Shown here one piece after another: positions 1 through 17,491 of a stretch of 64,000 nucleotides of DNA (the first letter of the stretch is position 1; each line of letters starts with the position of its first letter). The translations under genes were made by a program, and so were the position numbers. Source of the stretch: an uncultured Treponema sp. (GTDB taxonomy: Bacteria; Spirochaetota; Spirochaetia; Treponematales; Treponemataceae); contig CASGBA010000005.1 of assembly GCA_949299755.1 (NCBI GenBank), positions 1 to 64,000 on the forward strand, in the 5' to 3' direction. The notes beneath the pieces are model-generated. The model was given only the letters and a program-made list of their open reading frames with translations. It did no database searches and was not told where the DNA came from.

Positions 1-941
1 TGAAGGAATTCCCGGAATTGACGGATCCCCGTACAGGGCGTTCCCTCATGGAAAGGACGATGATAATCTGCAACACTTCGTCAATGCCTGTAGCCGCCCG
101 TGAAGCTTCGGTATATACGGGGGTTACCCTCGCAGAATATTACCGGCAGATGGGACTCGATGTCCTCCTTCTTGCTGATTCCACCAGCCGTTGGGCGCAG
201 GCTTTGCGTGAAATGTCCGGCCGCCTCGAGGAAATTCCGGGCGAAGAGGCTTTCCCCGCCTACCTTGAATCCTATATCGCCGCTTTTTACGAAAGGGCGG
301 GAATTGTCCGGCTGAGGGACGGTTCCACAGGCTCCGTCACAATCGGCGGAACAGTATCCCCCGCGGGCGGAAACTTTGAGGAACCTGTCACACAGGCCAC
401 CCTGAAGGTTGTCGGTGCTTTCCACGGTCTTTCCCGTGAGCGTTCCGACGCCCGTAAATACCCCGCCATACATCCTCTGGACTCCTGGTCAAAATATTCC
501 GGTGTAATAGACGCCGGAAAGGTCGCTTACGCGCGTTCTTTCCTCCGCAGAGGTGTGGAAGTGGAACAGATGATGAAGGTTGTAGGTGAAGAGGGAACCT
601 CTCTTGACGATTTTGTCGTTTATCTGAAAGAGGAATTCCTGGATTCCGTTTATCTCCAGCAGAACTCTTTTGACGAGGTTGACGCCGCTGTAGGAGTGGA
701 ACGGCAGAAATATGTGTTTGATATCCTTCTGACTATTCTCGGTACATCCTTCAAGTTTGAGGACAAGGATGAGGCTCGTTCCTGGTTTAACAAGAGCAGA
801 CAGCTTTTCATAGACTACAACTATTCCGAATGGAATTCGGAAGCTTTTAAAAACCTGGAACTTCAAATAAGGTCGGCGGTTGAAGATAAAGGTGTCGGCC
901 TGTCCGCCGAAGTTGAATCGCTTTTGAAAGAGGGCAACTGA
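1..941 (+). CDS. atpA: V-type ATP synthase subunit A, catalytic (C-terminal part, start lies before the window)
   Basis: This is the catalytic A subunit of the V1 head, which hydrolyses or makes ATP at the cytoplasmic face. The frame is open from base 3 and enters at a sequence that runs into the [13 protein letters not shown] stretch, so the Walker A region and N-terminus lie upstream of the window. The visible part has the [19 protein letters not shown] segment typical of A subunits and of the related F1 beta subunits, followed by the family's helical C-terminal domain. The stop overlaps the next start by one base (TGATG), so translation of A and B is probably coupled. It is the first visible gene of an A-B-D-I-K operon. 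Identity is secure. Confidence 0.97.
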
Positions 942-2236
942 TGAATAAGGTATACAGTAAAATTGAATCCATTAACGGTTCCGTTATAACCGTCAAGGCT
1001 GACGGTGTTAAATACGGGGAACTGGCAGAAATTGAGACAGCCTTCGGGACCTCTCTTGCGGAGGTCAACAAACTTGACGGGGACACAGTTTCCCTCCAGG
1101 TTTTTACCGGCGGCCGGGGTGTTTCCACCGGAGACAACATACGTTTTCTCGGCCATCAGATGCAGGTGAGTTTTTCATCGGATTTGATGGGCCGTATTTT
1201 CAACGGTTCAGGCGAGCCGCGTGACAAGGGTCCTGCTCTTAAAGACAACCTGACGGATATCGGCGGTCCGTCTGTAAATCCTGCGAAACGTATTATGGCC
1301 CGGCGCATGATCCGTACCGGTATCCCGATGATTGATATGTTCAATACACTGGTTGTTTCCCAGAAACTTCCGATTTTTTCAAGTTCGGGTGAACCCTACA
1401 ATGAATTGCTTGCAAGGATTGCCATGCAGGCGGAAGTAGACGTGATTATCCTTGGCGGCATGGGACTGAAATATGACGATTATCTTTATTTCAAGGACAC
1501 TCTGGAAAACGCCGGCGCGATGAGCCGTACTGTCATGTTCATACATACTGCGGCGGATCCCACCGTTGAATGCCTCATGATACCTGATATGTGTCTTGCC
1601 GTGGCGGAACAGTTCGCCATACAGGGTAAGGATGTCCTTGTCCTTTTAAGCGATATGACGAACTTCGCCGACGCCTTGAAGGAAATCGCGATTATCCAGG
1701 AGCAGGTTCCCTCGAACCGCGGTTATCCGGGGGATCTTTACAGCCAGCTTGCGTCCCGCTATGAAAAGGCGGTTGATTTTGACGATGCGGGTTCAGTAAC
1801 AATCCTTGCTGTAACGACAATGCCCGGTGATGACGTGACCCATCCTGTGCCGGACAACACCGGGTACATCACCGAGGGTCAGTTCTATTTGAAGAGGGGG
1901 CGCATAGAACCCTTCGGTTCCCTGTCACGTCTTAAACAAAATGTTAACGGGAAAACCAGGGATGACCACCGGGCGCTTATGGACAACATGATTAAGCTTT
2001 ATTCGGCATACAATGACACCCTGGAGAAAAAATCCATGGGCTTTATGATGTCTGACTGGGATAACAAGCTTTTGAAATACGGTGTTTTGTTTGAAAAACA
2101 GATGATGGATCTTTCTGTCAATATCCCGTTGGAAGGAGCCCTTGACGCAGGATGGAAAATTCTTGCCGAGTGTTTTAATCCTGAAGAAACCGGTATTAAA
2201 TCCGAGCTTCTGAGTAAATATTGGCCTAAGAATTGA
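941..2236 (+). CDS. atpB: V-type ATP synthase subunit B, regulatory
   Basis: This is the non-catalytic B subunit that alternates with A in the V1 hexamer. The length of 431 residues is normal for bacterial B subunits. It carries the [16 protein letters not shown] region where catalytic subunits have a P-loop, and no Walker A lysine motif, as expected. The family stretches [14 protein letters not shown] and [18 protein letters not shown] are present. The start is the ATG that overlaps the stop of subunit A, with a GAGGG ribosome site inside the end of A. It is followed after 22 bases by subunit D. Confidence 0.97.
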
Positions 2237-2258
2237 AGCTTCAGTAAAGAGGTTTTTT

Positions 2259-2900
2259 ATGGCGGTAAAGCTGACAAAAAACGAACTTAAGGCGCAGAAA
2301 GAAAGTCTGAAGATGTACAACCGGTATCTGCCCACACTTCAATTGAAGAAACAGCAGCTTCAGACTGAAATCCGCGCCATTGAATCCAAGGCAAGGGATG
2401 TACGTTCCCGCCGTGACAAGCTTCATGCCGAATTTGAAGCTTGGATAGCTGTATTCAGTGAAAAAGAAGCTTTTGCCCCTGACACTGTAACTGTCAGGCA
2501 GATAAGGACTTCAACAGGTAATATCGCCGGTGTTTCCATTCCTGTTTTTGACGGGGCTGATTTTGACCGGGCAGCTTACGATTTGTACAGCACCCCTTTG
2601 TGGATAGACACGGCTTCCGAGAAAATGGAAAGTGTTTTAAGTCTTGACCTTGAGGCAGGGGTGCTGGATGAACAAGTCCGGCTCTTGCAGGCTGAATTAA
2701 GGACAACAACCCAGCGGGTTAATTTGTTTGAAAAAATAAAAATCCCGGAAACAAAGGAAAATATCAGAAAAATCAGCGTATATCTGGGAGACCAGCAGGT
2801 TTCTGCTGTTGTCCGGGGCAAAATTTCAAAAAATAATCTGGAGCGTTCCAATAAAAATGTCTCCGGGACGGACGAACTTCAGCGGGAGGATTCTGTATGA
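2259..2900 (+). CDS. atpD: V-type ATP synthase subunit D, central stalk
   Basis: Subunit D forms the central rotor shaft that links the A3B3 head to the membrane ring. The 213 residues are largely predicted helix: an N-terminal coiled coil (about 1-65, rich in Lys, Gln and Glu) and a C-terminal helix (about 140-185, with [19 protein letters not shown]) that is the family signature. A GAGG ribosome site sits about 7 bases before the ATG. The last bases overlap the start of subunit I as ATGA. Separate E, F, C or G subunits are not visible; E and C would be expected upstream, outside the window. Confidence 0.95.
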
Positions 2901-4768
2901 TTGTACCCATGAAAAAAATATCGCTGGTGGTTCTCGAAGCTTCTAAGACGGGAGCCCTGTCTGCTTTAAGAAAACTGGGAGTGGTTCATGTGGAGAAAAA
3001 GGAGGCTTCCAGCCAGACTTTAACATCTCTGCAGGAATCCCTCATGCGTGTTGAGCAGGCAACCGGGATTTTGGCGGAAAGTAAGGCCAAGTCTTCCGCC
3101 GGATCAAAGAAAGCCGGCAGGGAGGAAGCCCTTGAAATAACGGACAAAATCCTTGCCCTTAAACAGCAAAAAGACGGCTACCTGGAGATTATTTCCAGGA
3201 CTTCAAGTGAATTGGAGCGGCTTGCAAAATGGGGGCCTGTGAATCCGGCTGACTTTGAATTTCTGGCTGACCACGGGATTTATCTTTTTCCTTTTGAAAT
3301 GTCCGCGGAGGATTTTTCCTCGCTTTCCGATTCAGTAAGGACTGTAACCCTTTCGCGGCATAAAAAAACCGTCCGCTGCGTGATTTGGAGCGATGTGAAC
3401 CTTCTCCCTTATTCCCTGCCGGCTTCCGCTGTGCCCCTTTCAATGCCGGAAAAATCCACGGCGGAAATGTCTGAGGAGATTAAAGCGGCGGAGAAAGCCG
3501 TTCCGGATGTTGATTCCAGAATCGCCGGTTTCCTGCCGTACAGGGATTCCCTGGATGAGCTTAAGAAAATCCTGCTGAAAGAAATTGAATTCGAAGTTGT
3601 CCGGGCGGGAATGCCTGAAATTTCCTTCCAAGATAGGGAAGAACAGGAGGAAGCCGTGGTCGCTTCCCCAAAGTTAGCCTGGCTTTCCGGCTTTGTCCCG
3701 GCGGACAAGGCTTCCATTGTTCTTGAAGCCGCCGCCGAAAACGGATGGGCCTGCGTTTCCGATGATCCTGCCGAGGAAGACAATGTGCCGACTCTGCTTA
3801 AAAACAGTAGGTTGGTGAACCTTATTTCGCCCTTGATGGATTTCCTCGGGACAGTCCCCGGTTACAGGGAAATTGATATTTCCCTGTGGTTCCTGTTTTT
3901 CTTCGGCGTGTTCTTCGCGATGATTTTCGGGGATGGAGGATACGGGGCTTTACTTACCCTGATTTCCATCATCGGGATTATAAAAACCTCCGGGAAAGGG
4001 AAAAAGGCGCCCAACGCACTTTTCATGATGCTTTATCTTTCAGTGATGACTGTCGCATGGGGCGTGGTCACCTGTACATGGTTTTCTATTCCTGCGTCCC
4101 AACTTCCCGATGTTTTGCGTTCCATAGCGGTTCCGGCTTTTTCATCGGAGAATCCTGCGGCCCAGGATAACATAAAGGTGTTTTGCTTTATCCTTGCGTT
4201 GATACAGCTTTCACTGGGGCATATTGTGTGTATTTTCAGGAATATACGTTCCCCGAAATTCCTGGGAGATTTGGGTTCCCTGATGATGGTTGTGGCGATG
4301 TTCTTTGTTGTTCTGAATCTTGTTGTTGACGCTGAAAAATATCCACTCAACAATCTGGTTATAGGAGGCATTATTGCAGGATTTTTCCTGAATTTCATTT
4401 TCTCAAATTATGAAGGGAATCTAGGTAAAGGTATTTTGACAAGCCTTCAGAATATAATTTCAATGCTTCTCGGTGTGGTGAACGTATTCGGTGATATTAT
4501 GAGTTACATCCGCTTGTGGGCAGTGGGTCTTGCGGGAAGTGCGATAAGTGCGACTGTAAATCAAATGGCTGGCCCTCTCTTGGGTGGTTTTATGGTATTT
4601 ATCGGTGTTTTGATTTTATTTTTTGGTCACGGATTGAATCTCATTATGAATGTTCTTTCTGTAATCGTCCATGGTGTACGGTTGAATATTCTTGAGTTTT
4701 CAAATCATATCAGTCTGACGTGGTCAGGCTTTAAATACGAGCCGTTCTCTGAGACGGTTGGAAAATAG
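2897..4768 (+). CDS. atpI: V-type ATP synthase subunit I (membrane stator)
   Basis: Subunit I is the equivalent of eukaryotic subunit a. It has a cytoplasmic N-terminal arm and a membrane half-channel that passes ions to the K ring. Of 623 residues, about 1-325 form the soluble arm with coiled-coil stretches, and about 326-610 form the membrane domain, starting with the strongly hydrophobic [20 protein letters not shown] segment. The conserved [16 protein letters not shown] helix near residue 540 carries the essential Arg. The start overlaps the stop of D (ATGA). The length is at the short end of the 600-700 residue family, as in other spirochaetes. Confidence 0.95.
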
Positions 4769-4778
4769 GAGTTCTGTT

Positions 4779-5207
4779 ATGGATTTAAATTTCGGTCTTT
4801 TCGGAGCTGCGGCAGTTCTGGGTATTTCGGCTGTTGGTTCCGCCATCGGTCTCGCGATTGCGGGGCAAGCCACCGTGGGTGCCTGGAAACGTTGTTACAT
4901 GAATAACAAGCCTGCTCCCTTCCTTGTGGTTGCCTTCGCCGGTGCACCCCTGACCCAGACAATTTACGGTTATCTTTTGATGAATACGATGCTTAAGTCT
5001 GTCAAGGATCCCTGGTATTTGCTCGGTGTTGGTCTTGTGTGCGGTCTTTCAATCGCCGCTTCTGCTGTTGCCCAAGGCAAGGCGGGTGCTTCCGGTTCAG
5101 ATGCGTATTGTGAAACCGGAAAAGGTTTTTCACAGTATATTACAGTTGTAGGTCTTTGTGAAACCGTTGCCTTGTTTGTAATGGTATTTGGTTTGATTTC
5201 TGTCTGA
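4779..5207 (+). CDS. atpK: V-type ATP synthase subunit K (rotor ring, double hairpin)
   Basis: This is the proteolipid of the rotor ring. The ATG at 4779 is preferred over an in-frame TTG at 4758 because AGGAG lies 7 bases upstream and the TTG falls inside subunit I. The 142 residues form four membrane helices as two hairpins. The ion-carrying Glu is E128 in helix 4 (GLCETVALF). Helix 2 has Thr59-Gln60 instead of an acid, and Gln99 sits in helix 3 (AVAQG). These match the residues that bind sodium in the Enterococcus hirae K ring, so sodium coupling is plausible (inference). The stop overlaps the next start (TGATG). Confidence 0.93.
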   Translation: MDLNFGLFGAAAVLGISAVGSAIGLAIAGQATVGAWKRCYMNNKPAPFLVVAFAGAPLTQTIYGYLLMNTMLKSVKDPWYLLGVGLVCGLSIAASAVAQGKAGASGSDAYCETGKGFSQYITVVGLCETVALFVMVFGLISV

Positions 5208-8749: not shown

Positions 8750-9613
8750 TCAGCTTGAAAGCATTTTAAAAGCGTTTTCTAAAAAATTAAAAAAACATTT
8801 CCGGTTGTAGGAGTGGGGAAGCAGGGTTTCAGGAAGAAAACTTTCCACATGGTCAATTATCGATGAAATATCTTTTTCCGAAAGGGGAAGGGTTTTCCCT
8901 ATGACAAGGTTTTCAAAATCCCTGTTCCTGAAAAAAGATTCGCTGGCCCAGGCTATACGCAAATCGTTTAATATGTTTTTCTGGCTCCGCACCAGAAATA
9001 CAAAAAAACCGGTATCTCGGGTAACAAGACCTTTACGGCCTGTGCGCTGGAAAACAGAAACATCCCAATGTTCCGTCGGGATTCTGATTTTCGTGATGAG
9101 TTCCTTTCCCCTTCTCAAATAATTTTCCGCTTGGGTTTCTTCGTTTTGGTTATTGGAAAAATAACTGTTAAGGGATACCCATTTCACTTCAGCTCCGTGA
9201 CGTATTTCAATTTTCGCGTCCAGTGCCAAAAGAGGTGCAAAAGCCGCATAGTGGAATTTTCTCTGGGCGATATTCCCTCCTATTGTTGCCAATGCCCGGA
9301 TAGACGGATTCCCGATGCTTCTAAGAGCTTTGTAAAGGATGGGAGGTATATTCTTTTCACCCAGATTGAGAATAGACCTGATTGTGACAGCCGCCCCGAA
9401 TTCTATGTATCTTTCAGTTTTGTTTATGACGCTTAGCTCCGGAATTCCGTTAAGTGTCAGGAGTTTTTCCGGCAATTCAAGCACTCTTTCTGTATGGCCT
9501 TGTATAATACCAGTACAACCACCGACAGGCTGTATTCCGGGAATATTTTTTATACTTGCCAGGGCCTCTTGAAGGGAATTTGAAAAGAATACTGTGGAAT
9601 CTTTTTTATTCAT
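8750..9613 (-). CDS. FAD-binding subunit of a xanthine-dehydrogenase-like enzyme
   Basis: This is the middle (CoxM/XdhB/YgfM-type) subunit that holds FAD and passes electrons between the iron-sulfur subunit and an acceptor. The ATG at 9613 is chosen because AGGAG lies about 13 bases upstream and ATGA overlaps the stop of the iron-sulfur gene; an upstream in-frame start at 9688 lies wholly inside that gene. The 287 residues contain both FAD-family motifs: PVGGCTGIIQG near the N-terminus and ALATIGGNIAQ at about 105-115. The C-terminal domain is the usual alpha/beta cap. It is the last gene of the minus-strand run and meets queA tail to tail with 9 bases between. Confidence 0.88.
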   Translation of the reverse strand: MNKKDSTVFFSNSLQEALASIKNIPGIQPVGGCTGIIQGHTERVLELPEKLLTLNGIPELSVINKTERYIEFGAAVTIRSILNLGEKNIPPILYKALRSIGNPSIRALATIGGNIAQRKFHYAAFAPLLALDAKIEIRHGAEVKWVSLNSYFSNNQNEETQAENYLRRGKELITKIRIPTEHWDVSVFQRTGRKGLVTRDTGFFVFLVRSQKNILNDLRIAWASESFFRNRDFENLVIGKTLPLSEKDISSIIDHVESFLPETLLPHSYNRKCFFNFLENAFKMLSS

Positions 9614-10083
9614 AGGTGTCTTTTTCTCCTGTAGGCCGCAGCTTTTTGAATCCCCTGTATTAAATCTTCTATGTCTGTGCAACGGCATATGATTCCGGAA
9701 AGCCGTTCCCGTATATCATTTTTACCCGGTTTTACATAGGTTGAGATTACCGCATGGGCTGTAAGGATTTTTCCAGCGTTGCAAAAACCGCACATGGTGA
9801 CCCCTGCATCCTCAAAACCTTTTTTTATGTCCTGATATTCTTCTGTTTTTTGGAAATGGGATAATGTTATGATTTCGGAATTCCTAATCTGAAAAGAGGG
9901 TATAATACAGGAGGAAACGGGAACCCCGTTCATCAATACTGTGCATGCACCACACCGTCCGGAACAGCAGGATTCCTTTGATTCCGTTAAATCAAACCGA
10001 TGACGTAAAATGTGTATAAGTCTGTCACCGGCTCTGGCATCAAGATATATTTTTTCCCCATTCAGCGTGAAAGGAATTATCAT
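9610..10083 (-). CDS. [2Fe-2S] subunit of a xanthine-dehydrogenase-like enzyme
   Basis: This small electron-transfer subunit of the molybdenum hydroxylase family has two [2Fe-2S] clusters. The plant-ferredoxin type cluster is set by CCSGRCGACTVLMNGVPVSSC, with exact C-x4-C-x2-C-x11-C spacing. The helical C-terminal cluster is set by MCGFCNAGK and IICRCTD. All eight cysteines are present, so this subunit looks functional, unlike the large subunit next to it. It overlaps its upstream neighbour by one base (TAATG) and its downstream neighbour by four, so the three genes form one translation-coupled unit. The length of 157 residues is normal. Confidence 0.92.
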   Translation of the reverse strand: MIIPFTLNGEKIYLDARAGDRLIHILRHRFDLTESKESCCSGRCGACTVLMNGVPVSSCIIPSFQIRNSEIITLSHFQKTEEYQDIKKGFEDAGVTMCGFCNAGKILTAHAVISTYVKPGKNDIRERLSGIICRCTDIEDLIQGIQKAAAYRRKRHL

Positions 10084-12290
10084 TATTTTGCCTCCTCTTT
10101 TTCTTCAAGGCAATTGTAAACATATTCAGCGTCTACAGGTGTTTTTGATGTAACCCTTCCTGTTATCTGCGCCAAGGCCGCACCGTAGGCTCCTGGCAAA
10201 AGATTATAGGCTATTGTTCCCAATCCGCTGGGTATGTCTTTTGATTCTATGAAAGTGATTTCCGGTTCTGGAATATAGGAAGACGATAATATATCAAACA
10301 GAATTCCATCCTTGGCTTGGAATTTTCCGTCTTCAATGTTTATATTTTCCGAAATAATTTTGGAAACAGCTTCTTTCACTGTTTTTTTTACAGTATTGAC
10401 AGCCGCATGCCGGTTGAAAAGCCTGCCCGCTGCGCAGGAAATCCATATACCCCTGATTTTAATATCGTAATTCAGGGGATCCATTTCCAACTCAACGGCA
10501 CAGGCTCCAGGAGTTGAAGAAATAAAAGGACTCCGTGCCGTGGTGATGTATGACATTTTTTCATTTTGATCCGCGGATTTTTCCAGTGGGTTTTTTACAG
10601 GTTTGTATGTTTTTTTTACCGTTATTGGCAGAGGCTTCCTAAAGCGCTGCCTTTGTATACTTGAACAGCATTTTGAAACTAGCGGGGCGAGGATGGCGAC
10701 TTTACTTGAAAGGGTATCCGGACCTGTTGATGACATGTCAGTTGTATCACTGCCTGTAAAGCTTATCAGTTTTTTTTCTACATCAAGGGTTTCTGCCGCT
10801 ATGGTACTTAAAATTTCTTTCATGGAAGGTGAATAAAATCCTGACTTTATGTGTATTTCGCCGTTTGTTTCCATGGTCATTTCCACTGAATATTGAGCTT
10901 CATCTATGGTCGTTGTTACAAACCCGTTACCCTGATATCCCCAGGTTAAACCTATGCCACGGAGGGAGCCGTCATTTATATTGTTCCGCTTTTTATTCAG
11001 GTTTTCGTATGCGGTATATTTTCTGAGAAAAGCGGAGGATTCACATACTTTGTCGACTACTGCCAGCATTTTTTCCTCCGCCGCATTTATTTTTTTTATT
11101 TCTGTCGGGAGCATATTGAGTTTTTCTGCCACAAGAGCCATATGGCTTTCCAATGCAAAAAAAACCGAAGCTTCTCCAAATCCATTCATGGCGCCCATTG
11201 GCGGAAGATTTGTCCTTACTGCGGTAATATTTATTTTTTGATTTTCAATATTATACAGCCCGGACGCTGTGATTGATGTTCTTGCAATGATTTCGGAAAG
11301 GAAAGGACTGTAGCCTCCTATATTAAGCCAAACATTTGTTTCCATGGCTTTAATTTTACCTTCAGTTGAAACCGCTGTCCTGTATTCTATTTTTGCCGGA
11401 GAGGATTTCAAAGTATAAAGAAAGTCCTCGTTTCTCGAAAGAACAACCTTTACCGGTTTTTTGCATAAAAATGAAGCCAAAGCGGTTTGGGCGGTCACAA
11501 GGGACGGCATCCAGATTTTTCCGTCCAAGGCTTCCCCTATTTCCGTGGGAGCCACTATAATTTTATCGGACGGATAATTTAGAACCAGTGACACTGTTTT
11601 CCTCACATGAAAGGGCCATTGTGTCGCCGTGTAAATTTCCAGACAATCTTTTTTTTGCCGGACAACGGCTCCGGGGGTTTCCGCATAAAAATGGTCCTGC
11701 GGGGAAATATCCACACAGGATTCCACGACTATTAATTCATTTTTGCTCTTTCCTACGGTTTTGTATTTTTTTTCAACCGTCTCCGCTTCTGTTTTATTTT
11801 CCGGATTTTGGGAATTTTCCGCAGCTTCTCCTTGGGGATCCGCCTTTTTCTTGCGGCCCGCTTTCTTTATTCGTAGGAATTTTTCGCAGTCGCCTTTGCT
11901 TTCACTGTGGATAATATACGGAGGAATACTGTCTTTTGTTTTTTTTTCGAAAACAGATTGAAAATCAACCGCTTCCAAAGTTTCGGCTTGAATTTCCACT
12001 TTTTCCGCCAAATCTTCGGTTATTTCGTAGTCAGGACCCACAAGAATTCCCAAGGGTTCCCCCAGATAGTTGATTTCATCAGGAGTAAAAACCGGAACAA
12101 CTGAGCCATTAAGTTCCAGATAGTTTTTCCCTGGAACATCCTTCGCTGTATATAGAAAATATCCGTCCGGAAGTTCCGGTGGTACTATGCTTATCAATTT
12201 TCCATGCCGAACCGGTGAACGTATCAATACGCCGTAATATTGGCCGGGGAATTTCAAATCGCTGAAAAAGATATGTTCGTTCTCGTCCAT
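10083..12290 (-). CDS. Divergent large (molybdenum-type) subunit of a xanthine-dehydrogenase-like enzyme
   Basis: The order large-FeS-FAD and the fold-level similarity (TATQWPFHVRKTVSLVLNYP, NLPPMGAMNGFG, GEIHIKSGF) place this in the XdhA/CoxL family. However, every molybdopterin-site hallmark is altered: the GGFGGK loop reads GEALDGK (about residue 252), RGFG reads NGFG (about 369), the GQG loop reads SPS (about 487), and the GxGE loop with the catalytic Glu reads GLGT (about 690). A Lys/Glu-rich insert of some 45 residues lies near 140-185. The ATG at 12290 is preferred over a TTG at 12302; no ribosome site is clear at either. It starts 19 bases after a sugar aminotransferase gene. It may be inactive, structural, or use other chemistry. 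Confidence 0.8.
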   Translation of the reverse strand: MDENEHIFFSDLKFPGQYYGVLIRSPVRHGKLISIVPPELPDGYFLYTAKDVPGKNYLELNGSVVPVFTPDEINYLGEPLGILVGPDYEITEDLAEKVEIQAETLEAVDFQSVFEKKTKDSIPPYIIHSESKGDCEKFLRIKKAGRKKKADPQGEAAENSQNPENKTEAETVEKKYKTVGKSKNELIVVESCVDISPQDHFYAETPGAVVRQKKDCLEIYTATQWPFHVRKTVSLVLNYPSDKIIVAPTEIGEALDGKIWMPSLVTAQTALASFLCKKPVKVVLSRNEDFLYTLKSSPAKIEYRTAVSTEGKIKAMETNVWLNIGGYSPFLSEIIARTSITASGLYNIENQKINITAVRTNLPPMGAMNGFGEASVFFALESHMALVAEKLNMLPTEIKKINAAEEKMLAVVDKVCESSAFLRKYTAYENLNKKRNNINDGSLRGIGLTWGYQGNGFVTTTIDEAQYSVEMTMETNGEIHIKSGFYSPSMKEILSTIAAETLDVEKKLISFTGSDTTDMSSTGPDTLSSKVAILAPLVSKCCSSIQRQRFRKPLPITVKKTYKPVKNPLEKSADQNEKMSYITTARSPFISSTPGACAVELEMDPLNYDIKIRGIWISCAAGRLFNRHAAVNTVKKTVKEAVSKIISENINIEDGKFQAKDGILFDILSSSYIPEPEITFIESKDIPSGLGTIAYNLLPGAYGAALAQITGRVTSKTPVDAEYVYNCLEEKEEAK

Positions 12291-12309
12291 AAAACAAACC
12301 AATCCAAGG

Positions 12310-13494
12310 TTAAGACTTCTTGTAATATTTTGCGCCTATTTTCGTTACTCTGTCAATAACGTAATGAATTTCTTCTTCATTCATTCCTGGCCAAAAGGGC
12401 AGGGAAATTGTTGTATCCGCCTTTTCGGCTGCATTTGGAAAGTCGGAACGGGAAAGGCCGTACCTTTTTTTTATGAAAGTAAAGTCAAAATGGGGGATAA
12501 AATGAACAGAAATTCCTAATCCTTCTTTTTGCAGTTCTTTCGCGAATTCATCCCTTGTAACCAGAAGTTTTTCCGGCTTTATTCTTAAAAGATACAGATG
12601 CCAGGCGTTCCCCGTACTGTCCGGAGGTATACGTAAAAAGTCATAACCGGAAAATGCTTCATTGAAAATTCCGGCAATCATTTTTCTGCGCTCCAAAAAG
12701 GCCTCCGCTTTTTTTAACTGAATCCGTCCTATGGCTGCAAGGATGTCCGGCATATTGCATTTCCATCCGGCACAGGTTACATCGTATTTCCACGAAGCTT
12801 CCTTTTCCGTGTATCTGTTCCAAACAGCCCTGTCTATTCCGTTTGAACGCAGGGTTTTTATTACTCCGGCCTTTTCGGGATTTTTCAGGGTGATCATCCC
12901 GCCTTCTCCTGTTGTTATTGTTTTTGTCGCATAAAAGGAAAAAACGCCCGCATCTGCCAGGGTTCCGGCGAAACCTGTTTTTGTTTTTGCCGGAAAAGCG
13001 TGGGCAGCATCCTCAATGACAACAGCGTTATACCTTTTTGCGCAGGCGTTTATATCTTCCATCGGACATAGGTTTCCTCCAATGTGTACTGGGACTACCG
13101 CTTTTATTTTTTTTTCTTTTTTGAATACATCCTCAAGCCTTTCCAGATCAATGCTGTAAGAATCTTTTTCAATGTCGCAGTAAACAATTTCTGCTCCGAG
13201 ATGCAAAGATGATGTGGCTGTGGAAATAAAAGTGTAAGGAGTGGTTACGGTTTTTGTTCCGGGACCAATCCCAAAGGCTTCCAGCGCCAGAAGCAATCCG
13301 GAGGATGCGCTGTTTACGCTTAATGCTTCCGGCGCTCCTATAAAGTCCGCAAATTCTTTTTCAAAAGCCAGAGCTTCCTTTCCTGTCGTGAGCCAACCCG
13401 AACGGATTACATTTAAAACCGCGTTTTCCTCTTCTTCAGAAAAGGAAGGTTTGAAAAACGGGATGAAAGGCTTATCTGCCGGTTTTGTTTCCAT
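12310..13494 (-). CDS. DegT/DnrJ/EryC1-type sugar aminotransferase
   Basis: This PLP-dependent enzyme of the family aminates nucleotide-linked keto sugars. The order PFFKPSFSEEEENAVLNVIRSGWLTTGKE, VNSASSGLLLALEA, VIEDAAHAF (the PLP-stacking Asp-His region) and FYATKTITTGEGGM (the Schiff-base Lys in SFYATK) is typical. ATG 13494 has AGGG about 9 bases upstream and is preferred to ATG 13518; both overlap the dehydratase gene upstream. The neighbouring UDP-sugar 4,6-dehydratase would supply the 4-keto sugar, so a 4-amino-4,6-dideoxy sugar product is likely (inference). The 394-residue length is normal. Confidence 0.9.
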   Translation of the reverse strand: METKPADKPFIPFFKPSFSEEEENAVLNVIRSGWLTTGKEALAFEKEFADFIGAPEALSVNSASSGLLLALEAFGIGPGTKTVTTPYTFISTATSSLHLGAEIVYCDIEKDSYSIDLERLEDVFKKEKKIKAVVPVHIGGNLCPMEDINACAKRYNAVVIEDAAHAFPAKTKTGFAGTLADAGVFSFYATKTITTGEGGMITLKNPEKAGVIKTLRSNGIDRAVWNRYTEKEASWKYDVTCAGWKCNMPDILAAIGRIQLKKAEAFLERRKMIAGIFNEAFSGYDFLRIPPDSTGNAWHLYLLRIKPEKLLVTRDEFAKELQKEGLGISVHFIPHFDFTFIKKRYGLSRSDFPNAAEKADTTISLPFWPGMNEEEIHYVIDRVTKIGAKYYKKS

Positions 13495-15013
13495 TTGATA
13501 TTTCCCTGTAGAATTCATCCAAAGATGGTACAGCTTCCCTCAAGTAAGAGATAAGGATATTTTTATTTCTGTACATATCCTTGTTTCCGTCTGAATATTT
13601 GCATACCGCTGAAAGTTTTGCCAACAAATCGTCGGTGTTAAAATCTCCAGCGGCATTTTCTGTTTCTTTTTTCTGAAGTTTGAAAATTTTCGGGAATCCG
13701 ATTTTTACGGGTTCTTCGTTTTCACTCCAAAGGGGTTCTGAAAGTCTTTCTCCGGGTCTGCTTCCTGTGATTTCTATTTTTATGTCTTTTCCAGGTTCGT
13801 ATCCGCTGAATCTTATGAGCAGGGCCGCAATGTCTATTATTTTCAGAGGCTGCCCCATATCCAGTAGATAAGAGGATCCGTTTTCGCCGACACCTCCTGT
13901 TTTTAGCACAAGGGAACAGGCTTCCGGAATTGTCATAAAATACCGGGTCATTGCCGGATCTGTCACTGTAACCGGGCCTCCTTTTTTTATTTGGCTTAAA
14001 AAGAGGGGCAGGATTGAACCCCGGGAACCGAGTACGTTTCCAAACCGTACAAACATATAAGCCTGGTTATCTTTTCGGGGAAATTGACCGGATTTAATTT
14101 TTTCCGCGGCTTGAAGTGTTAATTTTTCGCAGATGTATTTTGATACTCCGTAAATTGAAACCGGATTTACCGCTTTATCTGTGGATATAAGCACAAAACG
14201 GGGAACTCCATAGCTTAAACAAGCGTCCAGTATGTTTTTTGTTCCGAATACGTTATTTTCTATTGCGGCGACTGGATTTTCCTCCATCATGGGGACATGC
14301 TTGTAGGCGGCCGCATGGAAAACCACATCACAGTGAAGTTTCGATATTATGTTGTGTATATACTCCCGGTTTTGTAAATCACCGATTACAGGAACAATTG
14401 TTGCTTTTTCCCCGACCCCACCTTCCTGGAGCAGTCTTAATTCCTTGTCTATTTGATAAATTGAATTTTCACCGTGACCGAAAAGATATAGTCTTTCAGC
14501 TCCTCCTGAAAGCAGTTGTCTGGCTATTTCTCCTCCTATTGAGCCTCCTGCCCCTGTTATAAGAACCCTTTTTCCCCTAAGGTAAGCCAGGCTTTCTTTT
14601 AAATTGATGACCACAGGGGCACGCCCCAGAATGTCCTGAGGGTCTATCTCCCTGGTTTGAATCAGGTGGGCGGGACCTTCAATAATCTGGGAGATATTAG
14701 GTAGAAGCTTTATTTTATTAAAACCTGCATCCCTCAAATTGCTGTATATGTTTTTGAGTCTTTCAGGAGGGGCTCCGGGAATTGCGATTAATGCTTCGTC
14801 CTTCGGTCCTATGTTCATCACCCGTATAACGCTGTCCACAGGCCCTAAAACGGGTACCCCGTCTATATTTACCCCTATTTTAGCCGGATCATCATCAAGG
14901 AAAGCGGTTACGCTTCCGAAAACCCCCTTGCTTTTTATTTCCGAGGCCAGCATTGTTCCGGCGATTCCTGCGCCGATTATATAAATTTTAGTACCGGGTG
15001 TATTATCTGTCAT
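13472..15013 (-). CDS. Nucleotide-sugar 4,6-dehydratase, CapD/PglF-like but without membrane helices
   Basis: There are two Rossmann domains. The first, at about 8-110, opens with KIYIIGAGIAGTMLASEI and corresponds to the cytoplasmic CoA-binding-like domain of CapD/PglF proteins. The second, at about 148-430, is an extended SDR with VLITGAGGSIGGEIARQL, FHAAAYKHVPMMEENP and STDKAVNPVSIYGVSKY. The four N-terminal membrane helices of classic CapD/WbpM proteins are missing, and the SDR triad reads S-Y-K where the large membrane enzymes usually have Met for Tyr. It likely dehydrates UDP-HexNAc. Length is 513 residues. It follows the LoaP-like gene by 39 bases and overlaps the aminotransferase. Confidence 0.87.
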   Translation of the reverse strand: MTDNTPGTKIYIIGAGIAGTMLASEIKSKGVFGSVTAFLDDDPAKIGVNIDGVPVLGPVDSVIRVMNIGPKDEALIAIPGAPPERLKNIYSNLRDAGFNKIKLLPNISQIIEGPAHLIQTREIDPQDILGRAPVVINLKESLAYLRGKRVLITGAGGSIGGEIARQLLSGGAERLYLFGHGENSIYQIDKELRLLQEGGVGEKATIVPVIGDLQNREYIHNIISKLHCDVVFHAAAYKHVPMMEENPVAAIENNVFGTKNILDACLSYGVPRFVLISTDKAVNPVSIYGVSKYICEKLTLQAAEKIKSGQFPRKDNQAYMFVRFGNVLGSRGSILPLFLSQIKKGGPVTVTDPAMTRYFMTIPEACSLVLKTGGVGENGSSYLLDMGQPLKIIDIAALLIRFSGYEPGKDIKIEITGSRPGERLSEPLWSENEEPVKIGFPKIFKLQKKETENAAGDFNTDDLLAKLSAVCKYSDGNKDMYRNKNILISYLREAVPSLDEFYREISNGNKTGR

Positions 15014-15052: not shown

Positions 15053-15571
15053 TTATTGTATTATTTCAAATCCCAAGTCTATCAAAAAGGAATTTTCGTA
15101 AAAATCCAGCTTTACCTTCACCCTTTTTTTCCTTCTATCCACCTTGATAATGCAACCTTCCAGTCCTTTTAAGGGGCCGGAAACAATCTGAATCCTGTCA
15201 TTTTCATCAAATTTGGCGGTGGATATATCCGCAACCGCTCCGAAAGATGTGAAATGCAGGATCAATTCCAAATCTTTGCCTTTTAAGGATTCTGGTTTTT
15301 TATTATCCGGTAAAAAGCGGCAAAATCCTGCGGATGATTTTAACATTCCTAAAAGGTTATTGTCTATTTCATTATATTTTAAAAAGATGTATCCAGGAAA
15401 GAGAGGATAGAGTTTTTCAGATAATAAGCCGCTTTTCCGTATTATCAGTTTTTTTTGCGGGAAGAAAAACTCCGGAATTTCCGTTTGACAGGCGTTTTCC
15501 GCAATAACTTTGAAATTTTTTATGAAATTCTCCTCGGAACCTGTTATAACCTGAATGACATAGAAATTCAT
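15053..15571 (-). CDS. loaP: NusG-paralogue antiterminator, LoaP/UpxY-like
   Basis: The 172-residue protein has an N-terminal NGN domain (YVIQVITGSEENFIKNF to PGYIFLKY, about 3-105) and a C-terminal KOW domain (DRIQIVSGPLKGLEGCIIKVDRRKKRVKV, about 125-155). The KOW Lys/Arg cluster DRRKKR matches the LoaP type of specialised NusG paralogue. These factors ride RNA polymerase and suppress termination in long polysaccharide or secondary-metabolite operons. It stands first in a minus-strand run of sugar genes, as such factors often do. The start is ATG; no ribosome site is visible. The housekeeping nusG is not in this window. The subfamily name is less certain than the NGN-KOW fold. Confidence 0.82.
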   Translation of the reverse strand: MNFYVIQVITGSEENFIKNFKVIAENACQTEIPEFFFPQKKLIIRKSGLLSEKLYPLFPGYIFLKYNEIDNNLLGMLKSSAGFCRFLPDNKKPESLKGKDLELILHFTSFGAVADISTAKFDENDRIQIVSGPLKGLEGCIIKVDRRKKRVKVKLDFYENSFLIDLGFEIIQ

Positions 15572-15683: not shown

Positions 15684-16202
15684 ATGCGTGCTTTTTTTTC
15701 AATGCTTTGCTTTTTATTTCTTTTAGGTAGTGCTTCTGCCTCTACTGTAACTGTTTCAATGGCCCAAAACAAAAATGCTCCTGCCATAGCCGTTGAGATG
15801 ACACGTGTCATTGAAGACCAGATAATGAATGATTATTTCGCTTCCGGAGAAATAGTTTCCAACATGGAAATAGTTGAAAACTGCTCTTCCTTTGATAATC
15901 CCATGTTCAGTGTTAAGGAAGCTTCTCACGGAATGTCTGACTTCCTGCTGGCGGTTTTCCTTGAATACGGCCCGGATGAAAAGAAATTTACGGATTCAGA
16001 GGCCACATACGCTGAATTGAAAGAGGTCAATTGGCGGGTTGTGGATGTCCGCTCTCCGCAGGTTCTGGGTAGCGGTTATTTCAAAGTTAGTAACTCCCGT
16101 GTCCAGGAACAAAATCCCTATGAATGTGCCAGGATAATCGCAGGTCTTATCAGCAAAGAAGGTTTAAAAATACAAAATGGAGATAATGGAGGGAACAAAT
16201 GA
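15684..16202 (+). CDS. Exported protein of unknown function
   Basis: I do not recognise this 172-residue protein. Residues 1-19 form a clear signal peptide (RAFFSMLCFLFLLGSASAS), with cleavage likely after ASA. The mature part alternates predicted strands and helices and has two cysteines. Around residue 83-125 it reads DFLLAVFLEYGPDEKKF and ELKEVNWRVVDVRSPQVLGSGYF, which resembles small periplasmic proteins that bind or polymerise nothing obvious. GGAGGG lies 6-10 bases before the ATG. It overlaps the SPOR-domain gene by 4 bases (ATGA), so the two are probably made together and act in the envelope. Confidence 0.75.
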   Translation: MRAFFSMLCFLFLLGSASASTVTVSMAQNKNAPAIAVEMTRVIEDQIMNDYFASGEIVSNMEIVENCSSFDNPMFSVKEASHGMSDFLLAVFLEYGPDEKKFTDSEATYAELKEVNWRVVDVRSPQVLGSGYFKVSNSRVQEQNPYECARIIAGLISKEGLKIQNGDNGGNK

Positions 16203-17491
16203 GAAAACTTTCAGCTTTGCTCGCTGTTGTTGTTTTACTGCTTTCCCAGGGAGCTGTATGGGCTGTTTGGGAGGGAAATGCCGGTGTGGGTTCCGCAGGT
16301 AATTTCCCCGGGAGCGGAATGTATGCTTTAAGTGATATGTTCCCTAAAAACACCCTGGTGGATATCCAGAATTTGGAAACCGGCCTTTCCGTCCGGGCAG
16401 TGGTTGTCGGTTTATCCGGCGTGCCCGGGCTGGTTGCTTCTGTTTCTCCTGAAGTGGCGGAAAGCCTGAATATAAAAGAAGGCTCCGTCAGCCGTGTAAG
16501 GATATTTGTCCCTTCGGATACCTCCGAGGTTACAGTGGATGGTTTTGCCGGTCCGGTGAATGACAGTATAGACAGCAATGATCCGGATGTGAATCCTGCC
16601 GCCTTCGTGGCTTCAGAATATCCTTTGGAAGCGGGCACTGTTTACGATGAAACTGTAAATATGTCTGTGGCGGATGCAGAAGAAGCGGATGCTGAAAATA
16701 CAGGAGAAACGGTTGTTATGGCCGATCCTGTTGAAGAGACCGCAGAAACTGTGGATTCTTTAATTGTTTCCCAACCGGACAATGAACCGGAAGTGGTTTC
16801 TGAGGTCGCCGTATTTGAGCCGGTGGAAGAAGTTGAACCGTTGTATAGTGAAAATACAGATGACCAGGTATTTACGGATGATCCGGTTGTGGCCGTTGTG
16901 CCGCCGGTAAAGGAAAAAGAGGAAACTGAAGAAGTGACGGCGGATGCGGAAGTTATGGAAGTGGAGGAAATTGCACTGGTTCCTGCGGATATGAATCCTC
17001 CTCCTGCTGACGGATCCTATGTGGATGAGCTTGTTCCCGAGGTAGCCCCGGTTTCTTATGCGGAACCTGTAGGCGTTGATACCGGTATTGTGGCAGAGGT
17101 TGAGGAAGAAGCGGATTCAATCGCTTCTGCTGAAGCTAATGAAGAAATTGAAGAAGAAAGCTTTATTTCTGAATACATACCGTCATATGTGGAGAAAGAA
17201 GAACCTGTCACTGACACCCGTGATTTGGAACCTGCGGTGGTTGTATCTGTTCCTTCTGGTACCCTTAAAAAGGGTTATTACGTGCAAATAGGAAGTTATA
17301 TTGAGCCTGAAAACGTAAGGAAAATCGTTGATTCTTACAGCGGTAAATATCCGATTGCCTGTATGGATTCAGCCGCTTCCGGAGCCAAGAAAATCCTTGT
17401 TGGAAGTCTTGCGGCTGATGAGACAGGGGCTGTGTTGGAGTTCTTCCAAAAAGAAGGATTTAAGGACGCTTTTGTTTATGTGATAAATTAA
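16199..17491 (+). CDS. Exported SPOR-domain protein with long acidic linker
   Basis: The 430-residue protein has three parts. A signal peptide at about 1-22 ends at AVWA. A domain at about 40-105 (MFPKNTLVDIQNLETGLSV and SVSPEVAESLNIKEGSVSRV) resembles the double-psi barrel of RlpA-like proteins. A very acidic, low-complexity linker spans roughly 150-345. The C-terminal 75 residues are a SPOR domain (GYYVQIGSY to DAFVYVIN), which in other bacteria binds denuded peptidoglycan. A role at division or elongation sites is plausible. The RlpA-like assignment is weaker than the SPOR call because catalytic residues were not identified. The 3' end is duplicated downstream. Confidence 0.82.
   Translation: MRKLSALLAVVVLLLSQGAVWAVWEGNAGVGSAGNFPGSGMYALSDMFPKNTLVDIQNLETGLSVRAVVVGLSGVPGLVASVSPEVAESLNIKEGSVSRVRIFVPSDTSEVTVDGFAGPVNDSIDSNDPDVNPAAFVASEYPLEAGTVYDETVNMSVADAEEADAENTGETVVMADPVEETAETVDSLIVSQPDNEPEVVSEVAVFEPVEEVEPLYSENTDDQVFTDDPVVAVVPPVKEKEETEEVTADAEVMEVEEIALVPADMNPPPADGSYVDELVPEVAPVSYAEPVGVDTGIVAEVEEEADSIASAEANEEIEEESFISEYIPSYVEKEEPVTDTRDLEPAVVVSVPSGTLKKGYYVQIGSYIEPENVRKIVDSYSGKYPIACMDSAASGAKKILVGSLAADETGAVLEFFQKEGFKDAFVYVIN

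Follow-up and report, generated by a model that had tools for sequence, protein, structure and literature searches.

Introduction

The xanthine oxidase/xanthine dehydrogenase (XO/XDH) family, which includes XdhABC, bovine xanthine oxidase, Rhodobacter capsulatus XDH and nicotinate dehydrogenase (3hrd), combines a large subunit with a subunit carrying two [2Fe-2S] clusters and an FAD subunit. A 2018 survey of molybdenum use described orphan members of the XO family, encoded by organisms with no complete pathway for the molybdenum cofactor (Moco); it listed molybdenum independence among the possibilities and detected no residue signature that marks these orphans (PMC6147048). The survey also cites NuoG of complex I as a molybdenum-independent homologue, a Moco-less relative of the DMSO reductase family. 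Among treponemes, T. pallidum TPASS_0079 and TPASS_0081 are annotated as xanthine dehydrogenase with the term 'molybdoprotein binding' (PMC4403809); we found no publication on T. pallidum TP0078/TP0080.

Here we describe a three-subunit complex (XL, XS and XF) encoded in the window, by which we mean the whole 64,000-nucleotide stretch of DNA analysed, from an uncultured Treponema sp. The complex shares the fold and subunit plan of the XO/XDH family, but its large subunit, XL, lacks GGFGGK, RGFG, GQG and the catalytic Glu, its host lacks the Moco pathway, and its genes are linked to genes of sugar-nucleotide metabolism. Because XL departs from the XO family in both cofactor-binding and catalytic residues, we do not class it among the xanthine dehydrogenases. 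Like the orphans of PMC6147048 it is an XO homologue in an organism without a full Moco pathway; unlike them, it comes with defined residue losses and an operon context. In a literature search that lay mostly outside subscription journals, we found no paper describing a Moco-less XL clade and none reporting activity of close XL homologues.

Gene content and fold of the complex

The genes lie in a minus-strand run in the order LoaP-CapD-DegT-XL-XS-XF, and neighbours abut or overlap (Table 1). The initial annotation placed XL at 10083-12290; the open reading frame is real and reaches further, to a TTG at its edge at 12302, and 12290 is an in-frame ATG at residue 5. This ATG is nearly invariant in the family and, on comparison of the sequences, is probably the true start. 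The actual start of XF probably lies downstream of the listed ATG.

Table 1. Features of the XL operon, with positions in the window
Feature	Position	Strand	Description
XF	8750..9688	minus	FAD subunit; 312-aa ORF; FAD_binding_5, 116.3 bits
XS	9610..10083	minus	two-cluster [2Fe-2S] subunit; 157 aa; Fer2, Fer2_2; overlaps XL stop
XL	10083..12302	minus	XDH-fold large subunit, predicted Moco-less; 739 aa counted from TTG
GLGT where GxGE expected	10215..10226	minus	SGLGT; bovine E1261 -> T696
SPS where GQG expected	10824..10832	minus	YSPSMK vs MGQG; bovine Q1040 site
NGFG where RGFG expected	11175..11186	minus	AMNGFG vs AFRGFG; bovine R912 -> N373
GEALDGK where GGFGGK expected	11517..11537	minus	IGEALDGK vs GGGFGGK
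Q202, Q-loop Gln	11697..11699	minus	kept; bovine Q767, by alignment
DegT	12310..13518	minus	PLP aminotransferase, PseC-like; DegT_DnrJ_EryC1, 341.8 bits
CapD	13472..15013	minus	NDP-sugar 4,6-dehydratase, soluble, N-terminal Rossmann-type domain; Polysacc_synt_2, 363 bits
LoaP	15053..15571	minus	LoaP-type antiterminator (NusG paralogue) at the head of the run; antiterm_LoaP, 140.9 bits (cut-off 125)

XL carries the Hammerhead, MoCoBD_1 and MoCoBD_2 fold, as seen in Pfam matches (MoCoBD_1 181.8, MoCoBD_2 50.7 and Ald_Xan_dh_C 32.9 bits), in the predicted model and in comparison with PDB structures, and reaches none of the NCBIfam enzyme cut-offs. Structure prediction was one of the checks suggested in the initial annotation. 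The AlphaFold model (AF2, 55-sequence alignment; pLDDT 84.4, pTM 0.85) matches bovine xanthine oxidase over its full length (3b9j_K; Z 42.5, 664 residues, 3.2 Å) and R. capsulatus XDH comparably (1jro_B; Z 42.0), and as modelled, XL keeps the complete XDH fold.

Loss of the molybdenum site

Re-reading the sequence bears out the four motif changes reported in the initial annotation, as well as the absence of a GQIEGG-type stretch from XL of the window. Bovine-numbered residues were mapped onto XL through alignment to the mammalian enzymes, and the pocket was judged from alignments; F798, G799 and E802 correspond to L259, D260 and I263, and G1039-Q1040-G1041 to S491-P492-S493. The broader statement that every recognisable motif has gone holds for GGFGGK, RGFG, GQG and the catalytic Glu, and does not hold for Q202, the substrate Arg (bovine R880, R341 in XL) or the SGP turn, which survives as STGP. 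No cofactor residues shifted to other positions are seen in the alignments, and close homologues are equally degenerate.

The losses recur across the lineage: GGFGGK, RGFG or GQG is intact in none of 126 distinct XL sequences from Spirochaetia, whereas all four motifs are intact in 11 of 11 true XDHs of the phylum, so the pattern is not a matter of chance. The catalytic Glu (bovine E1261) is kept in 21 of 95 Treponemataceae XL and in 16 of 31 others, and some XL from outside the Treponemataceae retain the Q-loop and GxGE, a partial retention that, read from the sequences, would give a picture of stepwise erosion.

The window genome (2.35 Mb, 99.2% complete) yielded no match to MoaC, MoeA_N (MoeA), Mob_synth_C (the MoaA C-terminal domain) or MoaE in a family-by-family search, for which control genomes behaved as expected. 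MoaC is likewise missing from the XL-bearing genomes G312, G380, G150, G255, G267, G304, G319 and G353, and was found in 18 of the 145 genomes of the family. MoaC-positive treponemes have a motif-less XL plus a separate true XDH; in G034, G057 and G140 (loci L052-L054) this extra homologue has every motif intact and no CapD or DegT nearby. Lineage-wide motif loss and the missing synthesis genes strongly support the earlier suggestion that the enzyme has dropped molybdopterin, and we regard the XL complex as almost certainly Moco-free. That XL is instead a molybdenum hydroxylase, with scavenged Moco held by unrecognised residues, is very improbable: retention of the Q-loop and the GxGE Glu by certain relatives from a different family of the order would suit such an enzyme, but no XL has GGFGGK, RGFG or GQG, even the MoaC-positive genomes keep a motif-less XL beside their true XDH, and neither synthesis nor insertion machinery turned up among the four families searched for in the window genome.

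Has the vacated pocket been refilled? The initial annotation had considered another cofactor, and a different pterin, a nucleotide or a metal in the same place would be consistent with the kept fold and with positions conserved specifically in XL, namely W229 (Cys in true XDHs), L558-P559 (in an 'RxPLPITVKK' segment), C545/C546, P592 and S491; P703 is a further XL-specific position. Against this, among columns invariant in true XDH, those of the former Moco site, as picked by the analyst, have a mean entropy of 2.68 bits in XL versus 1.90 bits in the others (permutation p = 0.00065). A pocket that drifts this freely is unlikely to hold a substitute cofactor through those same residues, and the alignments reveal no conserved set of new metal ligands there. 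We consider such a replacement improbable. No new invariant cluster of catalytic appearance was seen among the XL sequences either.

Distribution and selection

A protein search found an XL homologue in 142 of 145 genomes of the same family, including 106 of 106 high-quality ones; completeness is 59-72% in the three genomes where none was found. In a wider survey, a profile search of 296 genomes of the phylum followed by reading of the loci, motif-less XL in the order CapD-DegT-XL-XS-XF was seen in about 11 additional families of the class. Given this presence throughout the family with shared motif loss, XL is a lineage trait and not one decayed gene. A tree of 65 sequences separates true XDH from XL by a branch with SH-aLRT 100; within XL the branches are long and the deep splits have little resolution.

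Purifying selection acts on XL: compared with the sister species, dN/dS is 0.076 for XL, 0.016 for XS and 0.022 for XF, approximate values with dS near saturation. XL also diverges more quickly than its neighbours in the operon, with a mean identity of 0.32 against 0.59 for DegT and 0.65 for CapD, as might be expected of a pseudogene decaying after Moco loss. That reading is refuted by conservation, with an intact homologue in every good-quality genome of the family, the low dN/dS and the retention of XL in a reduced 1.14-Mb genome, and we give it practically no weight.

The electron-transfer subunits

As the initial annotation had reported, XS of the window has all eight cluster cysteines (C39, C44, C47, C59, C98, C101, C133 and C135) and XF both FAD motifs; FAD-site motifs persist in the Treponemataceae. 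The claim that the electron-transfer arm looks live is sound for the window, where the ligands are intact, and does not extend to all relatives. Ligands for both clusters are kept in 122 of 135 orthologous XS and lost in part or whole in 13, in a count that includes a few genomes twice. In ten of these 13 at least one cluster II ligand is missing and cluster I is intact; two others have lost both clusters, and the last has lost cluster I ligands. The partner subunits of true XDHs keep both clusters in 11 of 11.

In xanthine oxidase, the path from cluster I to FAD runs through cluster II, and a subunit without cluster II should therefore have a broken chain. The 13 XS with lost ligands thus indicate that the full FAD-cluster II-cluster I chain is no fixed requirement, and cluster loss in some lineages weakens the case for electron transfer. 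The earlier proposal of a redox module with a structural partner is tempered in the same way: it is still compatible with the data in outline, but not as a module that must have the complete cluster chain.

Several individual loci illustrate the range of XS sequences. In XS of G020 (L043:9270-9737) none of the four plant-type cluster II cysteines is left, the cluster I ligands are in place, and Pfam recognises only Fer2_2. In two other families of Spirochaetia (L193:8323-8802 and L215:7857-8411), XS has lost nearly all cluster cysteines within a preserved XL-XS-XF order. C133, a ligand of the Mo-proximal cluster I, at first appears to be missing in 37 treponeme XS; the sequences inspected mostly show a shifted Cys pair (xCC), and the cluster is probably kept. 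In many treponemes (for example L041, L058, L061 and L071) the cluster I 'CxC' has become an adjacent 'CC' (PCC for CRC).

A non-redox alternative holds that the XDH-like heterotrimer is structural or regulatory, for instance joining CapD and DegT or stabilising DegT, with FAD and clusters that are structural or vestigial. It would account for the free drift of the old pocket, for the persistence of the genes after loss of cluster ligands in G020, L193 and L215, and for the combination of low XL identity with a strongly kept fold. The retention of both ligand sets in most XS, and of XF and its FAD motifs widely, exceeds the needs of a pure scaffold, and we judge a scaffold rather unlikely. Whether the role of the complex is redox or purely structural is, in our assessment, evenly balanced.

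Association with sugar-nucleotide genes

Neither the lineage-wide distribution nor the operon with a sugar-nucleotide dehydratase and an aminotransferase formed part of the initial annotation. DegT scores 315.6 bits against PseC, under the cut-off of 423.5, and CapD 178.2 bits against PseB, under 407.75; the PLP lysine of DegT, K199, is invariant in 35 DegT sequences. We also weighed a 3-deoxygenation of the E1/E3 type, in which an FAD/2Fe-2S reductase serves a DegT-fold dehydrase, and discarded it: the dehydrase of that system has His where DegT keeps the PLP Lys.

Of 102 testable Treponemataceae loci, 100 have DegT next to XL, as do 21 of 32 others, and CapD lies upstream within 2.2 kb of XL in 80 of 95 and 22 of 31, respectively. 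A search of 84,980 species genomes with DegT gave spirochaetal sequences for all of its best 80 matches; XL lies beside DegT in 79 of them, and the remaining locus stops at a contig edge. The closest named match comes from an uncultured Treponema (85% identity). The sugar link of the XL complex is not universal across loci: 11 of the 32 loci outside the Treponemataceae have no adjacent DegT, including all five f12 loci and L191, which is so counted only because its XL frame is extended. The f12 loci (L210, L215, L219, L220 and L221) encode XL-like motif-less complexes with no CapD or DegT nearby; MoaC was found in only one sampled f12 genome, and the group often has a second XDH with intact motifs. 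These complexes are possibly a further variant.

The small genome G020 (1,139,633 bp; locus L043) is apparently T. pallidum, with the same operon as TPASS_0079/TPASS_0081, judging from gene order and the annotation in PMC4403809. Its XL operon holds the sole Polysacc_synt_2 gene and the only strong DegT of the genome, and its single NeuB-type synthase lies outside the operon. NeuB is common across the phylum and its co-occurrence with XL is not specific; the NeuB homologues of treponemes score below both synthase cut-offs. In the f6 group of small genomes, which we take to be Borreliaceae, neither XL nor NeuB was found. The flagellins of T. denticola reportedly bear a sugar of the pseudaminic-acid type whose acyl group is unusual. 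In Bacillus subtilis, a legionaminic acid pathway is encoded by the sps genes (PMC7439481). Taken together, CapD and DegT, the NeuB patterns of G020 and f6, and the T. denticola and B. subtilis parallels point to a sugar that is probably of the nonulosonic-acid type, and we consider it likely that the XL complex is linked to the sugar pathway.

Other genes of the window may be mentioned here. Beside LoaP, at 15684-17491, lies a divergent pair encoding a 172-aa protein with a signal-like start and a 430-aa protein, neither with a Pfam match; similar pairs adjoin LoaP-CapD in several spirochaete families (for example L182, L184 and L192). The genes at 18-5207, judged by eye, resemble a V/A-type ATPase operon (A and B subunits and D-like, I-like and K-like proteins) and are located upstream of ruvAB and queA.

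Discussion

On balance we lean slightly towards a molybdenum-free, XDH-fold flavin/2Fe-2S heterotrimer tied to the synthesis of a 4-amino-4,6-dideoxy sugar, the chemistry being predicted. On this reading, Moco would have disappeared from XL-XS-XF in some spirochaete ancestor, the proteins would have persisted in a different role, and the three subunits would still assemble. The complex would most likely help to make or modify the 4-amino-4,6-dideoxy sugar that would arise through CapD, as a UDP-sugar 4,6-dehydratase, and DegT, as a C4 aminotransferase, on a route to a nonulosonic-acid-type surface or flagellar sugar. Redox activity would reside in the FAD of XF together with the [2Fe-2S] cluster(s) in XS, and XL would serve as scaffold and as docking platform for a partner or substrate; flavin chemistry is the least certain of these steps.

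If this is true, the XL branch would be an XDH-fold counterpart to NuoG in the DMSO reductase family. In both, a molybdoenzyme fold outlives Moco; NuoG differs in belonging to another fold family, in having Fe-S clusters of its own and in its respiratory role. For the question of orphan molybdoproteins raised in PMC6147048, the XL clade supplies a residue signature and a testable case. It also corrects the label of molybdopterin-binding xanthine dehydrogenase on a gene present in essentially all treponemes: the designation of TPASS_0079/0081 implies molybdenum binding, which the sequence contradicts.

That an entire clade of molybdenum-free XDH relatives performs a new flavin/2Fe-2S step in spirochaete nucleotide-sugar synthesis, including in treponemes with reduced genomes, is a tentative proposal to which we give somewhat less than even weight. 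The sugar pathway to which the complex is tied is the only source of such a sugar that a highly reduced genome has kept, which suggests an important role in surface or flagellar glycans.
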